A DNA stretch of 42,620 nt from Alphaproteobacteria bacterium (GTDB lineage: Bacteria; Pseudomonadota; Alphaproteobacteria; CAAGCB01; CAG-977), in NCBI GenBank assembly GCA_017480385.1, contig JAFVAT010000029.1:1-42620 (forward strand). The letters run 5' to 3'. The first letter of the stretch is position 1. The number at the start of each line of letters is the position of its first letter. The translations under genes were made by a program, and so were the position numbers. The notes under the pieces were generated by a model that was not told where the DNA came from, ran no database searches, and was given only the letters and a program-made list of their open reading frames with translations. Of the stretch, positions 16,925 to 42,620 are shown in pieces.

Positions 16925-19900
16925 ATGAATTTCAGACGTTTTAAACGCACTTTATTGTTATCTGCGGCATTTATTGCTTTGTCCGGTCCAGCCGGTGCTT
17001 ATAGGTTGCTTAGTGATCTTCCTCTGTTGCAGATTTATAATTTAGATGAGTATGCTCCAGTTTACGGTTTTGAATCCGGAATAGAGGCTTATGCTGCTCT
17101 AACTTCTATCGGTGAGGGCGGACCGATTTATCGTGTTGGGGACGAATACTATTATTGGTCTGTTTTGACTGACAGTCTGGAAATGAATGTTGATACAACT
17201 CTCGGCCAAAAATCATATTTTCTTTCTGAAGTGATTGAACCGACCGACCAAATAAATATGGGAGAGCTTTTTGAAAGGACCTACGGCGGGACAGAAAGTA
17301 CATTTGGTTTTAGTCGATATTCATTCCCCGCTTTCAGCGGATTGAATACAGACGAAGGAAGGAATGTAGAACGCAATGGGTTTGAAACGAAATTTGGTTT
17401 TGAATATTGGAGCGGTAATCTTGTTTACGGCCAGACAGATTCTGATTTCTTGACCAATTCTCCTTATTTCTATTCTCGTATGTCCATTCTGGCAAATGTG
17501 CGGTCAGAAAATATCACCAACAGCGTTTATCCTTCATCTCCAGAATACTTCTTTTTAATGTATAATGGGAACAGGAATGGTGCTGACACTCTGCTGTTTA
17601 TGAATAACTATGGGGCAATCGGAAATGCATCGACTTTGGACTTACAGCATTCTGCCTTTTTAGGAAATTCGGCAGGGCGGCTGATCACGCCTGGCTTGAC
17701 GGGCATTGGTGGCGGCGGCGTAATTTATAATGAAGGAACGATAAATACAGATCAAAACGTATTTGTTGCCAATTCCTACAACGCATGGGAGAGTACCGAT
17801 GGCGATATTTACGGTTTTATTTATGGTGTTCCTGATCCGACCATTTATAATCGCGGCGGGGCGGTTTTCAATGCGCGTGACTGGATATCAGTAAATGATC
17901 AATTCTTTGCCAACTGGTCAAATCGGGGGGGGGCGGTTTATAATGCTTCTTTCGGTTCCTTGAATATAGATACCGGCTTGTTTGTGCAAAACGAAGCCGG
18001 TTATGGCGGGGCGATTTATTTGGGATTGGTCGATGAATATTTTTCCGGAGAAAGAAGTCTGTTCGGTACGGGGAGAACTCGGCGGGTAGACGTAAGTATT
18101 TCCAATACTTCTTTTGCAAAAAATCATGCGTGGTATGGTGGGGCGGTTTATAATGAAAACGATGACCTTGGGGCATTCAGAGCAATTAGCAGCTCTACCT
18201 TTGACGGGAATGAAGCCTATCAAAATAATGGGGATATTAGAAGCGGCGGATATGGTGGGGCGATTTATAATTACGGTCCTCTTGAATTGCACCAAGATCG
18301 TTTTTTCCGCAATAAGGCCGTGGGAGTGGATATTCTCGGATATGGGACCGGATATGGCGGAGCGATTTATAACACATACTCTTATAACACATACTCGGAC
18401 GTTTTAGCTTTTACGCCTTCGGGTATTGGTACCCTGAACATTGTCTCTTCAGAATTCGGTGAAAATGAGGCCTATCAGGGCGGGGCGATTTATACTGCCG
18501 GCGGAAATATTACGATATATGAAAGTGGCTTTTATGACAATAAGGCTCATGATGTCGGCGGGGCGATTACAATCATAGGTGATGATTCCTTTTTAGAACT
18601 TAGCGGCGACAAATCTGCATTTGTTCACATTTTTGATTCGTTTTTTTCCGGTAATGTGATGAATACCGATGCTGTTGCTGTGGCCAATGATATTGCTTTG
18701 TTAGGGAGTGATGTGTACTTATCTTTAACGGATAGCGGTTATGCTTTAACAAGTTTGGAGGGCGGAATATACTCTGACGGCAGTTCGTCTCAGATAATAG
18801 ATATTGCTCATGTTTGGAATAGGGTCGGAACGGTTTCAATCGGCGGGACGCAGAATAATACGTTTAAAGGCAGTTTGAACATACTTGGCGGTATATTGCA
18901 AATGCAGGCCGGCGCGGTGGGTTTTGATAAGGCTCAATGGACGATCGATAATGGCAGCACGCTGGACGTGATGCAGGGAACGGAGGCGGCGGATTACGCA
19001 ACATATGTGCTTCAGCTTGTCGATTATTCGGAATTTAATGTCAAGCTGGATTTAAATGCCGCGGACGGATCAAGCGATGTGTTGGATATTTATGATGTAA
19101 ACGGCAGAGGAGAGCCTCTTGTTTCTGTAACAAAGGTTTCCATTGCCGGCCAAAGCGGCGCATTTGATAATAACGGCGATCAGGTTGATTTTATAGTGTT
19201 GCAAGATGATGGAATTTTGGCCATTGATCCCAGATTGGCCGCAGAATCGTTTGATCTGGAAACGACGGTCTATAAAACGGAATCTGATGCTCTGATCGCA
19301 TCGGTGAATTATGATCATGTCTTTTACACTCATGATTATGAAGGCGCCGCTTTGGGGTATTTAGATGTTACAAGTTCCAATATGCTTTCACTTATTCGCG
19401 ATGACAGTCTGATTTCCGATTGGACAGAAACGGATAAAACGCCGATCGGCGATACGCTGGCATTGTTGAATCAGACCACGCAATTTTCTGAAAAAACGTT
19501 TTCATTTAATCGGGCGGATACCTATACGGCTTCCGCAGAGCCGGGGGATACTTCCGGTATCATGAATATTGTCGGAACCAGCGGGGCGGTGATTGATCTG
19601 TCCGCTGTCTCCCCCTCTATCGGATTTTTTTCCTTAATCAATGGGGCAAAGATCAATATTTCCGATGTTAAGCTGGTTTCAAACTCCGGCTATGCTCCTG
19701 TCATTTATACTGATGCCAGCGATGTGGCCGTTACATTGTCAAATGTTTCTTTTTCCGGCAGCAGCGCGTCCGATGTGGACCTTTATGGCGGCTCTCTGTA
19801 CCTGTATGGCGATGTTGCTCTGAATAAAGGGGTGTATGCCGAAAATGCTCAAGTAAACATTTATGGAGCAGCAAATTCATCAAATGCCGTTGTTCAGGTT

Positions 19901-22177
19901 GCGGACACCGGTGTGCTTTCCATTGTAAACGGAGGTTCTTTAAAAGTTAAGGCAGCCAATCTTAAATCAGATAATAATATCGTCAATAACGGCACGTTAG
20001 TTTTACAAACGGGAACATACAGTTCCAGCGCCATTACCGGAGACGGAACAACGGAAATTTCCGGAACAGTAGCCGTTAATGCTTCTCTCGGTACTAAAAT
20101 TACTGTGGCGGAGGGCAATGCTCTGTCAATTTCTGCCGGCAATGTCGGAGGTGCGGTGACGAATACCGGTATGCTGACTTTATCAAACGGTACGTTAAGC
20201 AAGGCTATTTCCGGTACGACGGGGACTACCGTCATTAATGGTTCCATTATTGTTAATGGCGTGGCGATTGATAATGGGATTACCATTAATTCCGGAAAAA
20301 CCCTGCAGACTTCGGCAGATTATATCGGCGGGGAAGTTGACAACAGCGGGACAATAACATTAACCGATGGGACGCTGGTAAAGGCGATTTCCGGGACGGG
20401 ATCGGTGATCATTAACGGATCAGTTGAGGCAAACGCCGCTATTGCAAATACTATTACAATCAATAATGATAAAACATTGAATATTTCCGGTGATTATTTG
20501 AACAATGCCGTGACTGCCGCAGGAACGCTGAATTTAATTGGCGGAACGCTGGCGCAGGAGGTTACGGGTGCCGGATCGATCACGGTAAATGGTGATGTTG
20601 TTATCAGTGGCAATTATAACAGCTTTACGGGAACGGCAGCGCTGAACAGCGGTTCTTTGACTTTGTCCGGCACGACAACGTTTAATCAGGAAGTCGATGT
20701 TAACGCCGGTACGCTGGAATTGGGACAAGAGCTGCTGAATGCCAATACGGTTGTTTTTAAATCCGGTTCTGAACTTAATATCACAGTTTCAAACAATGAT
20801 GATGCCGTTACGACCGGTCGTGTGAACGCTTTTGATATACTGACCGCAGAAGACGGAGCCATATTGAACATAGCGCTGGAAAATTTCACGTTGAGAAAAG
20901 GGGAAAAGCAAACGGTAACGCTTTTGTCCGCTGGTTCATCAATAACAGACAACTTTACCGTAACGGACGGCTTGCGTTATGCTTTTGAAAGGACAGGAGA
21001 CGGCGTCTATACGATTACGGGTGTTTTGTCCGCCGGGGACGTGGCCGGATTGGTCGGCGGATCTTCGAATAATACTGCCGCTGCCGATGCGTGGGACAAT
21101 GCTGACACTAATGACGGCGCTGTCGGTAGTGATATAGCCAAAGAGCTGGCTTCTTTATCCGCCGATACTTCGCAGGGCAAGAAATATCTGACGGCCCTGA
21201 CGGCCCTTGCTCCGGAAGAAAAGCCTATGGTTGCTGCCGTATCGACGGAAAATGTACATAAAGTTTTTAATGTGGTAGGTTCCCGTTTAAGCGCGCTACG
21301 CCAGTCGTCCTACGGAAATACGTCAGCCAATCAAATGCGCAGAGCTTTACAGCAAGTGACTGACCGTGGACGCAGCGGCGGATCCAGATCGAACCCGAAT
21401 ACATTCGGTTCCGTATGGGGGCAGGGATTGTATAACTATGCTAAATTCAGCGGATCTCAGGGCTTTGAAACAAATATGGCCGGCGGAGCTGTCGGGGCCG
21501 ATTTCGGTATCGGCGGTTTCAGACTGGGCTTCGGGTCCGCTTATACTGCCGGTACGGTTGACGGCTATCAGCGCGAAACCGATGTGAAAAGCTATACCGG
21601 TTTCTTATACGCCGAATATCTGACGCGAGCCGGCTTCTATATCAATGCGGCTGCCAGCTATGGCCTCAGCGAATATGATGAGGAAAAAAAGGTTCTGTCA
21701 ACAAAAGTCAAAGGAAATTATGACGTGTCGACAATCGGGGCTCAGGCAACCGTCGGCTGGGAATTCTCCGGTTTCAGTCCGGAAATCGGCGTGCGTTATG
21801 CCCATTTTGAACAAAAGAAATATACCGATACGATCGGTCAAACTGTTGGAAATACGTCCGGCGAGACAATCACCGGTGTGGCTGGTGCAACGATCAGCCG
21901 AAGCTATAAAACCGGATATAAGTCTTTCTTTGAACCAAGCTTCAGACTGGGGGCCGCTTATGACTTCAAGCAGGACAAAATGAAAAATATCGTTACGCTG
22001 AGCAATGGTTCAACGTACGAAGTTACCGGTGAAAATTTGGATAAGTTATCCATTGAAACAGGACTTGACCTGACATTCCGCAGCGGAAAAGGGGAAATTT
22101 CTTTAGGCTATGAAGGCCGCTTCCGCGAACATTATCAGGATCATACCGGCACGCTGAATTTCAAGTATAACTTTTAG
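16925..22177 (+). CDS. giant Pmp-like autotransporter (type V secretion)
   Basis: A 1750-aa outer-membrane protein. The signal peptide is MNFRRFKRTLLLSAAFIALS plus GPAGA. Residues about 263-550 carry nine GGA[IV]-type motifs (mostly GGAIYN or GGAVYN) alternating with FxxN-like motifs (FAKN, FDGN, FFRN, FGEN, FYDN), the pattern of chlamydial polymorphic membrane proteins, which form beta-helical adhesins. Residues about 1057-1232 hold three repeats of about 58 residues. The last 260 residues (from SVWGQGLYNYAKFSG) form the beta-barrel translocator and end in Phe. A run of nine G (17925-17933) inside one GGAVYN codon set makes the gene a likely phase-variable locus. I chose the ATG at 16925 because GAGGGGG lies 8 bases before it. 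Confidence 0.92.
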   Translation: MNFRRFKRTLLLSAAFIALSGPAGAYRLLSDLPLLQIYNLDEYAPVYGFESGIEAYAALTSIGEGGPIYRVGDEYYYWSVLTDSLEMNVDTTLGQKSYFLSEVIEPTDQINMGELFERTYGGTESTFGFSRYSFPAFSGLNTDEGRNVERNGFETKFGFEYWSGNLVYGQTDSDFLTNSPYFYSRMSILANVRSENITNSVYPSSPEYFFLMYNGNRNGADTLLFMNNYGAIGNASTLDLQHSAFLGNSAGRLITPGLTGIGGGGVIYNEGTINTDQNVFVANSYNAWESTDGDIYGFIYGVPDPTIYNRGGAVFNARDWISVNDQFFANWSNRGGAVYNASFGSLNIDTGLFVQNEAGYGGAIYLGLVDEYFSGERSLFGTGRTRRVDVSISNTSFAKNHAWYGGAVYNENDDLGAFRAISSSTFDGNEAYQNNGDIRSGGYGGAIYNYGPLELHQDRFFRNKAVGVDILGYGTGYGGAIYNTYSYNTYSDVLAFTPSGIGTLNIVSSEFGENEAYQGGAIYTAGGNITIYESGFYDNKAHDVGGAITIIGDDSFLELSGDKSAFVHIFDSFFSGNVMNTDAVAVANDIALLGSDVYLSLTDSGYALTSLEGGIYSDGSSSQIIDIAHVWNRVGTVSIGGTQNNTFKGSLNILGGILQMQAGAVGFDKAQWTIDNGSTLDVMQGTEAADYATYVLQLVDYSEFNVKLDLNAADGSSDVLDIYDVNGRGEPLVSVTKVSIAGQSGAFDNNGDQVDFIVLQDDGILAIDPRLAAESFDLETTVYKTESDALIASVNYDHVFYTHDYEGAALGYLDVTSSNMLSLIRDDSLISDWTETDKTPIGDTLALLNQTTQFSEKTFSFNRADTYTASAEPGDTSGIMNIVGTSGAVIDLSAVSPSIGFFSLINGAKINISDVKLVSNSGYAPVIYTDASDVAVTLSNVSFSGSSASDVDLYGGSLYLYGDVALNKGVYAENAQVNIYGAANSSNAVVQVADTGVLSIVNGGSLKVKAANLKSDNNIVNNGTLVLQTGTYSSSAITGDGTTEISGTVAVNASLGTKITVAEGNALSISAGNVGGAVTNTGMLTLSNGTLSKAISGTTGTTVINGSIIVNGVAIDNGITINSGKTLQTSADYIGGEVDNSGTITLTDGTLVKAISGTGSVIINGSVEANAAIANTITINNDKTLNISGDYLNNAVTAAGTLNLIGGTLAQEVTGAGSITVNGDVVISGNYNSFTGTAALNSGSLTLSGTTTFNQEVDVNAGTLELGQELLNANTVVFKSGSELNITVSNNDDAVTTGRVNAFDILTAEDGAILNIALENFTLRKGEKQTVTLLSAGSSITDNFTVTDGLRYAFERTGDGVYTITGVLSAGDVAGLVGGSSNNTAAADAWDNADTNDGAVGSDIAKELASLSADTSQGKKYLTALTALAPEEKPMVAAVSTENVHKVFNVVGSRLSALRQSSYGNTSANQMRRALQQVTDRGRSGGSRSNPNTFGSVWGQGLYNYAKFSGSQGFETNMAGGAVGADFGIGGFRLGFGSAYTAGTVDGYQRETDVKSYTGFLYAEYLTRAGFYINAAASYGLSEYDEEKKVLSTKVKGNYDVSTIGAQATVGWEFSGFSPEIGVRYAHFEQKKYTDTIGQTVGNTSGETITGVAGATISRSYKTGYKSFFEPSFRLGAAYDFKQDKMKNIVTLSNGSTYEVTGENLDKLSIETGLDLTFRSGKGEISLGYEGRFREHYQDHTGTLNFKYNF
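17925..17933 (+). repeat. G9 mononucleotide tract inside the autotransporter frame
   Basis: Nine G in a row encode part of Asn-Arg-Gly-Gly-Ala-Val-Tyr at about residue 333. In the sequence given the frame is open. A change of one G would shift the frame before the beta-barrel and switch the protein off. Confidence 0.85.
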
Positions 22178-22499: not shown

Positions 22500-22886
22500 C
22501 TATTCGCAGCAGCAGCTTTTGGATTTAGCTACCGGTGAATAGGCCCAAGTACAGTAAACACCGTCGCAAACGGAAACGCAGGATCCGTTGTGATCCAAAC
22601 GGTATTTTTCTTTGCACGTGAACGAATGGCCGTTGCATTTGGCATTGCTTGGACAGCTGACGCATTCGCCGTCTTTTATGTATTGAGACGACGTACAGAC
22701 CGTTCGTGAGTTTTTTGAACTGACAGTACGCGATGCAGATACCGAAGACAGATTTTGTACATCACGCCCCAATTTAAACGCTTTAGCGACTTGAAAACTG
22801 TCTTGAGAATTTAACTCTCCTGCCGCCTGAACCGATAAGGGAAGCGCACAGCACAGAATAAACATCATTGTTAAATATTTTTTCAT
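22500..22886 (-). CDS. Cys-rich secreted protein, 128 aa
   Basis: A protein with a signal peptide (MKKYLTMMFILCCALPLSVQ-AA). The mature part has a Ser-rich linker, then a Cys module: GECVSCPSNAKCNGHSFTCK, followed by CVSVCDGVYCTWA and a final KSKSCCCE. The module CxxCPxNAxCxGxxFxC is also present in the protein at 41113-41439, so the two are paralogues. It is the second gene of an operon: the upstream Cys-rich gene ends 15 bases before it, and AAAGGAGG lies between. Secretion and disulfide bonding are likely; the function is unknown. Confidence 0.75.
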   Translation of the reverse strand: MKKYLTMMFILCCALPLSVQAAGELNSQDSFQVAKAFKLGRDVQNLSSVSASRTVSSKNSRTVCTSSQYIKDGECVSCPSNAKCNGHSFTCKEKYRLDHNGSCVSVCDGVYCTWAYSPVAKSKSCCCE

Positions 22887-22901: not shown

Positions 22902-24323
22902 TTAATAAACACAACAGCACTTGTCGCTTGATAAAGTTGCATCAGGAGGACACATTCCAACCCGATTCAGTTTGCATTCGCCATTTTCAAAGGTGTAGTC
23001 GGAGTTGCACTTCTGACAAGAACCGTCAGAGGTGCATTTATCACAGCCTTCCTTCATACACGCTTCTTTTGTCACCGGACAGCTGAAGTGGGTAAGTGCG
23101 CAGTAATAACCGGCTGGAATATGTTTTTCGCATTCTTCCATAGTCCAAAAATCCCCTAAACCATTGCCGAAGCATTGCATAACAACGGTATCAGTTTCAT
23201 ATGTTACCAATTTTTTGGTGTAAGCGTCATAAATGGTAAGATCAGGAGTATAGGAGTAATAAGCGCTGATACCATTACGTGATTGATAGGATGATTGGTA
23301 CCTTGAACCGTCCGAATTTTGTTTTACCAGCGAGAAGGATTCCCAGATGCACTTTCCATTGTATTCGATAAACTCTTTATCACATGACACACTCAAGCAT
23401 GCTGTGGAACTGCAGGAAGTGCAGGTTCCGTCTGCTATGTCGAATTTTGAACAATCTTGGGGGCAAGAGTGGTTACTACGAACAGAGCCAGTTGGATCTT
23501 CACCTACAAAAGAAAACATTGTACCGTTATTTTTATAGATGTACTCGCATAATTCTTCCCCGATCTGTCCGCCCCAGCCAACATATAGATCCTCATCAAT
23601 AGTATAACAGTTGTAATCAGGGATCATTGAACAATAGCTCGTCGTACAGCTGGACGCTCCCTCGTCCGAAGTTTGACCGCTGGGGCAGGGTGTGCAGGAT
23701 GTGTTTCCTGGACCTGAAGCATATGTTCCGGCGGGACATTTGTCACAAATGCCACCAGAGCCATAATATCCGGCCGGACAAGGTATGCATCTGGTGGCTC
23801 CAACACCACCATCCCAACCATTGGCATATAGATTAGTCTCAATACTGCTATCTATATCGTTTTTATACAGATCTTCAGAAGTAGTCCCCGCCGGACACCG
23901 TGAGCACGTGGTATTCCCTGTTCCGGAAGCATAGTCTCCATCATGACATGAATCGCAATAAGTTTCTCCTGACATATTCTGTTTAGTTCCCGCCGGACAA
24001 GGTTTACATGCAGTGGCTTCATCTTCATCAGAATAAGTTCCCGGCTTACACTGTGCGCAAGTCCCGTTGTTTTTGTACGTGCCGGCATAACAAATCTCTT
24101 CGAACGGGATGGAAATGGATGAATTGCCGCTGCATGTATAACAGCCGGCATAGTAACCTGCCTTGCAAGTTCCGGAGCAACGTGAATTACAGTCAGATAA
24201 TGTTAATTCACCTTTTAAATCACAGCATGATTCTTGAGTGGTATTGGCCGGACATTGCGCTCTTGAAAACCCTTGCTGCGGATAAAGCAGCAAAAGCAAA
24301 AAAATGATAGATATCTTTTTCAT
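22902..24323 (-). CDS. large Cys-rich secreted protein with EGF/TNFR-like repeats
   Basis: A 473-aa protein with a signal peptide (MKKISIIFLLLLLYPQQGFS). Residues about 20-230 hold repeated CPAGTYxSG-x-x-x-x-CxxCP units, like the GCC2/GCC3-type Cys repeats of eukaryotic and VSP-like surface proteins. A less Cys-rich middle part follows (about 230-400). The C-terminus returns to CxxC spacing (CDKCTSDGSCQKCNSDYTFE) and ends in SSDKCCCVY, echoing the neighbour's SKSCCCE. GAGGGGG lies 6 bases before the ATG. It is the first gene of a two-gene operon and has a G14/C14 tract beside its promoter. Likely exported; no membrane anchor seen. Function unknown. Confidence 0.8.
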   Translation of the reverse strand: MKKISIIFLLLLLYPQQGFSRAQCPANTTQESCCDLKGELTLSDCNSRCSGTCKAGYYAGCYTCSGNSSISIPFEEICYAGTYKNNGTCAQCKPGTYSDEDEATACKPCPAGTKQNMSGETYCDSCHDGDYASGTGNTTCSRCPAGTTSEDLYKNDIDSSIETNLYANGWDGGVGATRCIPCPAGYYGSGGICDKCPAGTYASGPGNTSCTPCPSGQTSDEGASSCTTSYCSMIPDYNCYTIDEDLYVGWGGQIGEELCEYIYKNNGTMFSFVGEDPTGSVRSNHSCPQDCSKFDIADGTCTSCSSTACLSVSCDKEFIEYNGKCIWESFSLVKQNSDGSRYQSSYQSRNGISAYYSYTPDLTIYDAYTKKLVTYETDTVVMQCFGNGLGDFWTMEECEKHIPAGYYCALTHFSCPVTKEACMKEGCDKCTSDGSCQKCNSDYTFENGECKLNRVGMCPPDATLSSDKCCCVY

Positions 24324-24362: not shown

Positions 24363-24391
24363 ATTCTTACGCAAATAAAAATGCATCTCAA
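24363..24391 (-). promoter_or_regulatory. putative sigma-70 promoter of the Cys-rich operon
   Basis: On the minus strand TTGAGA (24386-24391) and AAGAAT (24363-24368) are 17 bases apart, giving a leader of about 33 bases. The C-tract of 14 bases begins 9 bases upstream of the -35 box. Confidence 0.5.
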
Positions 24392-24400
24392 TAAAGATAT

Positions 24401-24414
24401 GGGGGGGGGGGGGG
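24401..24414. repeat. 14-base G/C homopolymer tract upstream of the Cys-rich operon
   Basis: Fourteen G on the plus strand (C on the coding strand of the operon) lie 78-91 bases upstream of the start codon and just upstream of a putative -35 box. Length changes would move upstream sequence along the helix relative to the promoter. The gap 24324-24791 otherwise holds AT-rich DNA and the ettA terminator; no supported gene. Confidence 0.85.
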
Positions 24415-24651
24415 TATATTTTTAACAAAAGTGTCACAAATAAAACAAGAGTCAAGACCGCTTTTAGTGTGAATCATAAAGTGATAAAAACGAAGAAATA
24501 CTTAAATAATTGTTTATATAAATAGCTCAAATATTATAAATAATGTTTTTTTTAAATAAATACAAAAACAGAAAAAAAGGCTGCGTTTTCACTAAATTAA
24601 GATGCAGGATAAAGAAATATCCGCCAGACAGGCACGTGGTTTTCGGAATAC

Positions 24652-30833: not shown

Positions 30834-31943
30834 TTAATGCTGAGCCGCACGCTCTTTTACTTTGGCGGCGAGAGACGGCTCGATTTTAGGCGTCGGAGCG
30901 ATATTCTTTAAGGCTGTCATCATCGGCGGGCGGGCAGAGGCGGCAGCTGCTTCTTTGGGCCGTTCCTGAGAGGCGTATGTTTGCCCTGTCGTATAAGAAT
31001 ACATGTCGCGCAAAGTCGGATCCGTCTTTCTTCCGTTGTAGATCATTGCTGATCTGTCCAATCTTTCAATGGCATTTTCCGAAATGGAAAAGGCTTCTTT
31101 CGATGTTAAAAATTCGGGAGAAATTTGCTGCCTGAGGTCATCGGACAGAAAAACCTGCTGCAAAACTTCGTCGGAAGAAATGGTGCCGGTCAGGATTTCT
31201 TTGTGGTTGGCATAGCCTTGTTCCATAGAAAACGTAAAATTGCTGACATGATCATTTTCATAGGAAGTTTGATAGTGTTTAAAGCCGTACCATGATTTGA
31301 ATGCGGCTTCTCCAGCCTTTCCCATATCGCCGGATTTTTCCATTTCTTCCACGAAAGCGCGATACATCGGAAAATCACCGGTCAGTCTTTCAACTTCGGG
31401 GTGCTGTTCGCGAATTTGATATGAGAATTTAGCCTGTTCCGCCCAAGCCGCCGCTTCGGCAGCGCGCGTAAATTTAAACTGATCGGCTAAAGTTAATTCC
31501 GCTCCCTTATGTCCCAAATATCCGGTCCGTTCCTGCTGAAGGGCGTGAGTCATTTCGTGAACGGCTGACGACGCCATTTCCGCCGCGCTGCCAAGCATGC
31601 AGGAGGAGAGCATAATCTTTTTCTGATTAGCGTACATACAGCCGAAGTTTTTTGAATGGAATGTTTCGAAATAGACGTCATATCCCGCGGCTGCAACCTC
31701 ATCTAAAAGCTTTTTTCCTTGAGGAACGGACGCGATCAGATCAAAGGTTTCTTTCAGCAGTTTCTTTTCTTCTTCCTGAGCGGGTCGCTTCTTTTGAAAA
31801 GTATTTTGCAATATTCCCTGTGGCGTTTCATAAGTATATGTCTGCAATTCATTAACAGAGAAAGACTCTTCCATATCCTGCCGGGTTCTGGGCGGTTCGG
31901 GCTCCTGCGGTTTTCTTCTGAAAAGATTGGATAAAAAAAACAT
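30834..31943 (-). CDS. putative zinc metallopeptidase (DUF6782-like), copy 1
   Basis: A 369-aa protein. HEMTH at 129-133 is a gluzincin HExxH zinc site; RAAEAAAWAEQAKF (160-173) matches RVMEADAMAHECA in the copy at 35986 and may give the third ligand (Glu). Both also share AFKxWYxxxxY and a MEQG/MGQ block. No signal peptide is seen; the Ala-rich, basic C-terminal tail is low complexity. The ribosome-binding site is fused to an 11-base G tract directly before the ATG, so translation may switch with tract length. The substrate is unknown. Confidence 0.75.
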   Translation of the reverse strand: MFFLSNLFRRKPQEPEPPRTRQDMEESFSVNELQTYTYETPQGILQNTFQKKRPAQEEEKKLLKETFDLIASVPQGKKLLDEVAAAGYDVYFETFHSKNFGCMYANQKKIMLSSCMLGSAAEMASSAVHEMTHALQQERTGYLGHKGAELTLADQFKFTRAAEAAAWAEQAKFSYQIREQHPEVERLTGDFPMYRAFVEEMEKSGDMGKAGEAAFKSWYGFKHYQTSYENDHVSNFTFSMEQGYANHKEILTGTISSDEVLQQVFLSDDLRQQISPEFLTSKEAFSISENAIERLDRSAMIYNGRKTDPTLRDMYSYTTGQTYASQERPKEAAAASARPPMMTALKNIAPTPKIEPSLAAKVKERAAQH

Positions 31944-31946
31944 GCT

Positions 31947-31957
31947 CCCCCCCCCCC
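31947..31957 (-). repeat. 11-base G tract in the ribosome-binding region of the metallopeptidase gene
   Basis: On the coding (minus) strand the ATG at 31943 is preceded by AGC and eleven G. The G-rich stretch itself is the only possible Shine-Dalgarno. A second ATG (31957-31959) directly before the tract is one base out of frame; with ten G it would come into frame and extend the protein. Confidence 0.85.
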
Positions 31958-41075: not shown

Positions 41076-41090
41076 GGGGGGGGGGGGGGG
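41076..41090. repeat. 15-base G/C homopolymer tract behind a Cys-rich gene
   Basis: Fifteen G in a row on the plus strand. On the minus strand the tract begins 22 bases after the stop codon of the Cys-rich gene at 41113-41439. It is the longest homopolymer in the window. Confidence 0.85.
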
Positions 41091-41112: not shown

Positions 41113-41439
41113 TCAGTTTGTACACAAATCGTCAATTGTGCGCTGTCCGTTGGGGCATAAAAATGTTCTGCCGCCCATGCAAACCGCATTATCCGGGCAA
41201 ACAATGCATTTATTTCCTTTAAGAAAGTAATCACTATGACAAATGGTGCATTTGCCAGATATTGTACAGGACAGACAATTTTCGGGACACGGCATTTTCC
41301 TTAATTTTTTGTCATTTCCGCCCTGATTCCTTATTGATACCGCATTGACATTCTGCTCTGTTTTAAAGGTTTCGGAACCGGCTTGGTCCTGTATCATTAA
41401 ACACAATAAAGGCACGAGTATGATTATATGTTTTTTCAT
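41113..41439 (-). CDS. Cys-rich secreted protein, 108 aa
   Basis: A small exported protein: signal peptide MKKHIIILVPLLCLMIQDQA-GS, a polar linker, then a Cys region: CPENCLSCTISGKCTICHSD, YFLKGNKCIVCPDNAVCMGG, RTFLCPNGQRTIDDLCTN. The block CxxCPxNAxCxGxxxFxC is shared with the protein at 22500, and CxxC spacing resembles VSP/furin-like repeats. AAGGAG lies 9 bases before the ATG. Probable disulfide-bonded surface or secreted protein; function unknown. Confidence 0.75.
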   Translation of the reverse strand: MKKHIIILVPLLCLMIQDQAGSETFKTEQNVNAVSIRNQGGNDKKLRKMPCPENCLSCTISGKCTICHSDYFLKGNKCIVCPDNAVCMGGRTFLCPNGQRTIDDLCTN

Positions 41440-42226: not shown

Positions 42227-42620
42227 TCATAAACGATCTATCACATCATCTTTGACACATTGGAAACAGGCCGCGCCGTTATTGTTCTTTATAGGACAAC
42301 ACCCATTTTTTTCCAATATGAAACCTGGTCCACAATAAGTTGGAGTTCCATTAACGCAAGGACCATGTGAAGAACTAGTACCTCTACATTGCCCGCCTAC
42401 AGGTTTTTCACCGTTAGTGCAGCGTTGGCAAACAACACCTGTTTTAGAGCTTGTGCACTGTGAACAATTTGCTATAGCAGAAGAACAAGACGGACACATG
42501 CCAGATGTATAATCCAAGTAATATCCGGAGCTGCATGTACTGCAGTATCCTTTTGAGCACATGTCTGCGCAATGGTTCGGGCAAACAGCATTGACACATT
42601 TTCCAATAACCTCGTTATAT
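42227..42620 (-). CDS. Cys-rich VSP/EGF-like protein, partial (N-terminus outside window)
   Basis: The frame is open to the window end, so only the last 130 residues are seen. Cys pairs are dense: CVNAVCPNHCADMCSKGYCS, TCSSGYYLDYTSGMCPSCSS, CSQCTSSKTGVVCQRCTNGE, then GCCPIKNNNGAACFQC. CxxC spacing and YYLD-type turns resemble VSP/furin-like repeats and the nearby Cys-rich proteins. The tail (VKDDVIDRL) is acidic and has no membrane anchor. It is most likely a secreted protein; the signal peptide would be outside the window. Confidence 0.75.
   Translation of the reverse strand, partial: YNEVIGKCVNAVCPNHCADMCSKGYCSTCSSGYYLDYTSGMCPSCSSAIANCSQCTSSKTGVVCQRCTNGEKPVGGQCRGTSSSHGPCVNGTPTYCGPGFILEKNGCCPIKNNNGAACFQCVKDDVIDRL

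Follow-up and report, generated by a model that had tools for sequence, protein, structure and literature searches.

The G9 tract and its autotransporter gene

A run of nine G lies within the coding sequence of a large autotransporter in the window, that is, the whole stretch of 42,620 nucleotides analyzed here. It raises the question of whether this surface protein is switched on and off by changes in the length of the run. The parts of the gene that bear on the question are as follows:

16925 to 22177, plus strand: autotransporter gene, 1,750 aa, with a signal peptide, Pmp-like repeats, and a C-terminal beta-barrel
17642 to 18604, plus strand: Pmp-like repeat part of the passenger, which holds the G9 tract; GGA[ILV] and FxxN motifs, about residues 240 to 560
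17925 to 17933, plus strand: G9 tract, in frame, codons CGG GGG GGG GCG (R-G-G-A)
21413 to 22090, plus strand: Autotransporter beta-domain (PF03797; Pfam, E 1.1e-29)

The gene starts at the ATG at 16925, which is preceded by the SD-like sequence AGAGGGGG, and the signal peptide MNFRRFKRTLLLSAAFIALSGPAGA was recognized by eye. The exact G9 was confirmed, in frame as had been predicted, with the reading AAT CGG GGG GGG GCG GTT TAT AAT (N R G G A V Y N); the tract covers residues 334 to 337. Removing one G in silico leads to a stop at residue 346 and adding one to a stop at residue 340, in agreement with the earlier claim that the gain or loss of a single G breaks the frame before the barrel.

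The passenger contains 10 copies of GGA[ILV] (mean of shuffled sequences, 0.4) and 17 copies of FxxN (shuffled mean, 6.2), and its match to the Chlam_PMP repeat (PF02415) sits exactly at the Pfam cut-off. The chlamydial Pmp middle domain was absent from the Pfam matches of the protein (E <= 0.001), and we therefore describe the autotransporter as Pmp-like and do not file it as a Pmp. The polyG of chlamydial pmpG is a precedent for tract variation (PMC6740158). Like the pmpG group of C. pneumoniae, C. abortus, and C. psittaci, the protein studied here has a barrel and GGA[ILV]/FxxN repeats, and the polyG lies in the passenger upstream of the barrel, where a frameshift would truncate the product (PMC6740158). 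It differs in that no middle domain was found, in being alphaproteobacterial, and in having a tract of only nine, known here at one length.

Codon background and distribution of G9 tracts

The proposal that the repeat motif itself seeds the G run is well supported: most GGA[IV] copies in the repeat region use GGNGGGGCG, reading GGN GGG GCG, and the G9 copy is two synonymous C-to-G changes away from a neighboring copy (residue 311, CGC GGC GGG GCG). The tract might thus be a chance product of the G-rich codons for R-G-G-A that has no selected function and maybe mutates somewhat faster than average, an explanation that we consider reasonably probable. When synonymous codons were permuted within the autotransporter gene, the probability of a longest G run of at least nine was 0.027, and it was 0.011 when codons were drawn from the usage of the other genes in the window. 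By this codon null, G9 is only mildly unexpected, and in a set of some 2,000 genes, P values of 0.01 to 0.03 would arise several times.

In the 2.03-Mb genome, there are eight G7, two G8, and five G9 runs, and 21 runs of at least ten. The G/C tracts of at least ten are far from chance, whereas the G9 class is ambiguous and may be due to chance. The five G9 runs exceed what would be extrapolated from G7 and G8, and in meningococci most homopolymers of at least eight vary (PMC5084427); both points speak against a chance origin. However, among 12 genomes of the family, G9 tracts are not commoner in the six tract-rich genomes (5, 1, 2, 2, 1, and 3) than in the six tract-poor relatives (5, 2, 6, 2, 0, and 2). 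A second in-frame G9 of the same genome (L143:3559-3567) lies in an RNase J-like gene, where its codon P is even lower (0.003). An evolved on/off switch in such a gene is unlikely, and this tract cautions against calling every G9 a switch.

The original prediction was that G9 is an evolved translational phase switch, in which a slip to 8 or 10 would turn the autotransporter off early and a reversion would restore it. The in-frame position with early stops on both sides, the nature of the host gene as a surface autotransporter with Pmp-like repeats, and the richness of the genome in tracts all fit this idea. So do the precedents in chlamydiae (PMC6740158, PMC4514472); in CT166 of C. trachomatis, the ON state has nine Gs, and the reads are of mixed tract length (PMC4514472). 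Autotransporter-like genes of two relatives carry a G9 (G010, in a gene without Pfam match) and a G10 (G011) at positions unrelated to that of the focal tract, which is suggestive but not decisive. Set against this are the codon null, the G9 counts, the G9 of the RNase J-like gene, and the presence of MutS. Moreover, the same tract was not seen in relatives: no orthologous autotransporter with the tract was found, and the best relative (G001) runs off its contig before the passenger. No second assembly of the same species was found among genome contigs (by protein) or viral contigs (by flank). We therefore regard an evolved switch at G9 as doubtful. What stands of the predicted phase switching is that the organism appears to use G/C tracts; G9 itself is a candidate.

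The G9 in the autotransporter is the weakest kind of switch candidate. The tract, a short stretch of G-rich codons within the GGA repeat, is probably slippage-prone; after a slip, the autotransporter would be cut off a few residues further on. At most, it is a minor, currently ON, translational contingency tract.

Mismatch-repair loss was considered as the cause of the abundance of tracts in this family and was rejected: MutS is present in all 12 genomes, complete in 10 (full length in this genome) and in pieces in 2.

Longer tracts in the window

The window contains three longer tracts that the original prediction did not mention: G14 at 24401, C11 at 31947, and G15 at 41076. The first belongs to a promoter with the following parts:

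24415 to 24437, minus strand: conserved upstream box GTGACACTTTTGTTAAAAATATA, GTTACA-type half-sites 11 bp apart
24401 to 24414, minus strand: C14 tract (G14 on the plus strand) in the promoter of a Cys-rich gene, the window member of the promoter-tract family
24386 to 24391, minus strand: predicted -35 (TTGAGA), 9 bp downstream of the C14 tract
24363 to 24368, minus strand: predicted -10 (AAGAAT), 17-bp spacer
22902 to 24323, minus strand: gene for a secreted Cys-rich protein under the C14 promoter, 473 aa, with Ephrin_rec_like/TNFR-like repeats
22500 to 22886, minus strand: second gene of a probable operon, with a signal peptide and a ...SFQVAKAFKLGRDV motif

The C14 promoter probably also drives the gene at 22886-22500. 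The other two tracts have different surroundings:

31947 to 31957, minus strand: G11 (C11 on the plus strand), occupying the Shine-Dalgarno position of the DUF6782 gene, 3 nt ahead of its ATG
30834 to 31943, minus strand: gene for a DUF6782 putative metallopeptidase, downstream of the G11
41076 to 41090, plus strand: G15 tract, 23 bp past the stop codon of a small ORF (41113-41439, minus strand) that encodes a secreted Cys-containing product

A TTGACA-N17-TACTAT promoter lies upstream of the G11, and a DUF6782 paralog (L250), which is 63% identical, has the same start without the tract. The G15 adjoins a short inverted repeat. At the edge of the window and contig, the ORF at 42227-42562 (minus strand) is cut by the contig end; it is Cys-rich by eye and probably a further member of the secreted Cys-rich family.

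A promoter module with a poly-C tract

Ten of the 21 tracts in the genome, which are 10 to 16 G/C long, share one promoter context. On the strand of the downstream gene, this module consists of a GTTACA-cTTTT-GTTAMA box, AATATA, C13-15, and then ATATCTTTATTGAGA. The box is composed of two half-sites 11 bp apart that form a GTTACA-type direct repeat. When every offset and spacer was scanned over 28 copies, the common core that scored best had the -35 at +10 to +15 past the tract, a 17-bp spacer, and the -10 at +33 to +38, a placement 5 SD above the mean; the gap between tract and -35 is therefore 9 bp. The ATG follows at about +70 to +85 past the tract, with a good Shine-Dalgarno sequence. An alternative placement, in which the -10 followed the C tract directly, was rejected, as the scan favored the -35 at +10 and the -10 at +33.

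A degenerate pattern of box and tract gave 9, 6, 14, and 9 matches in four species of the genus and no match in the other eight of the 12 genomes, and a reversed control pattern gave none in all 12. Among 84,980 species genomes, all 17 matches to the exact pattern fell in three MAGs of this genus of uncultured Alphaproteobacteria. In total, box, tract, and core are common to about 30 copies in four species, with the tract at a fixed place in the promoter, and the three sister species carry it as C12-21. A member of the same promoter family in G001 (L204) has the same type of gene downstream but only six Cs (CCCCCCT), a short or locked version.

Over the module copies, tract lengths range from 12 to 18 on near-identical flanks, apart from one of 21 at a contig end; paralogous copies in G003 have 12, 13, 14, and 16 Cs. 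The assemblies are MAGs, so that the lengths are consensus values, and the differences are between paralogous copies and not between cells. They are what slippage would leave, although they could also be fixed rather than switching. It might be supposed that the promoter C tracts are fixed structural elements, such as a spacer or bend, in line with the clustering of lengths at 13 to 15 in G000. The spread of 12 to 18 Cs, the related G001 promoter with only C6, and the known instability of pure C runs of such length in other bacteria (PMC1891110) make this improbable. It is less probable still, to the point of being remote, that the lengths are assembly artefacts: although MAGs were used, and several tracts lie less than 100 nt from contig ends, some of them beside odd A/T runs, most tracts in G000 are contig-internal with flanks conserved on both sides, and the same module occurs in four independent assemblies. 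In G003 and G001, many of the promoter tracts are about 100 nt or less from a contig end, as though the assembly had been broken by tract heterogeneity or by identical flanks.

Judging from the position, conservation, and length variation of the tracts, we consider it highly likely that the promoter tracts act as phase switches. Slipped-strand mispairing would alter the length of the C tract, which lies between the box and a predicted sigma70-type core whose -35 begins 9 bp past a C12-18 tract. The box would bind a putative activator, perhaps of the OmpR family, which is suggested by the 11-bp direct repeat. With each base gained or lost, the box would then shift and turn with respect to the polymerase, the rotation being about 34 degrees, and this displacement would raise or lower the transcription of the downstream genes for Cys-rich proteins.

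Genes behind the tracts and other placements

Nine of the ten module copies in this genome precede genes for secreted Cys-rich proteins; the exception, L056, encodes a 221-aa protein with few cysteines. The products have a signal peptide and many cysteines, and several of them match Ephrin_rec_like and TNFR-like repeats and, weakly, Giardia VSP. Many also share an N-terminal motif such as SFQVAKAFKLGRDV.

Tracts are found at other sites in related genera. In genera g2 and g3, Cys-rich genes (L150, L155, L156, and L161) carry a C10-11 tract directly behind the signal peptide. L155, L156, and L161 have the same N-terminal motif, and the tract encodes PPP in frame (n = 10, 10, and 11), whereas in L150 (n = 10) the gene and its signal peptide are in different frames, so that both states exist among the copies. 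G10-12 tracts also lie between a TTGACA-like -35 and the -10 in genus g2 and G005 (L066, L067, L077, L085, L142, and L163, also L059). They precede flagellin-like, pilin-like, lipoprotein-like, and Cys-rich genes, named by eye from the N-terminal sequence.

It is conceivable, with the arguments about evenly balanced, that a multi-locus phasome has evolved in this lineage. Poly-C tracts, placed differently from genus to genus (in the interval from the activator box to the -35, in the -35/-10 spacer, or just after the signal peptide), would switch a single family of secreted proteins rich in Cys, and the G9 of the Pmp-like autotransporter would be a recent addition at the short end of the length range.

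Relation to known systems and implications

Promoter switches that work through spacer length are known, as in the Neisseria porA and Haemophilus hif type. The tracts between -35 and -10 in the sister genera are of this class, which was seen in relatives and not in this window. The module itself has counterparts in two other systems, which the proposed binding of an activator and rotation of the box resemble. In the C-stretch promoters of fim2, fim3, and fimX in Bordetella, a long promoter C tract, up to C19, also stands beside a conserved upstream box and before genes for surface or secreted proteins (PMC1891110). In contrast to these, the tract of the module lies upstream of a recognizable -35, its box consists of an 11-bp repeat of the GTTACA type, and each genome carries about ten copies of the module before genes for Cys-rich proteins. 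In sabA of H. pylori, the length of a T tract alters the alignment of upstream elements and the core promoter (PMC4081817), and this homopolymer, like that of the module, separates an upstream element from the core promoter and stands just ahead of the -35. The module differs in having C instead of T and an upstream element that resembles a response-regulator site and not an UP-like element. G/C-tract phase variation is of a known kind, but its occurrence in this lineage and the promoter module are apparently undescribed; a literature search of incomplete coverage returned nothing relevant on such tracts in alphaproteobacteria or this lineage.

Most known cases of multi-locus phase variation through tracts come from host-associated pathogens and commensals, although a 2025 review notes a possible database bias (PMC11868660). 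Considering the G/C tracts together, this organism very probably phase-varies through them, mainly elsewhere than at G9. The reading that we favor, with some confidence, is that its surface and secreted proteins are varied by slippage of long G/C homopolymers, mainly via the repeated promoter module, and that G9 makes at most a minor contribution. For the focal G9, tract length and codon background need to be weighed before it is called a switch. For the promoter module, the effect of the spacing between box and core on output could be tested directly with about 30 natural tract-length variants of one cassette, drawn from four related species.
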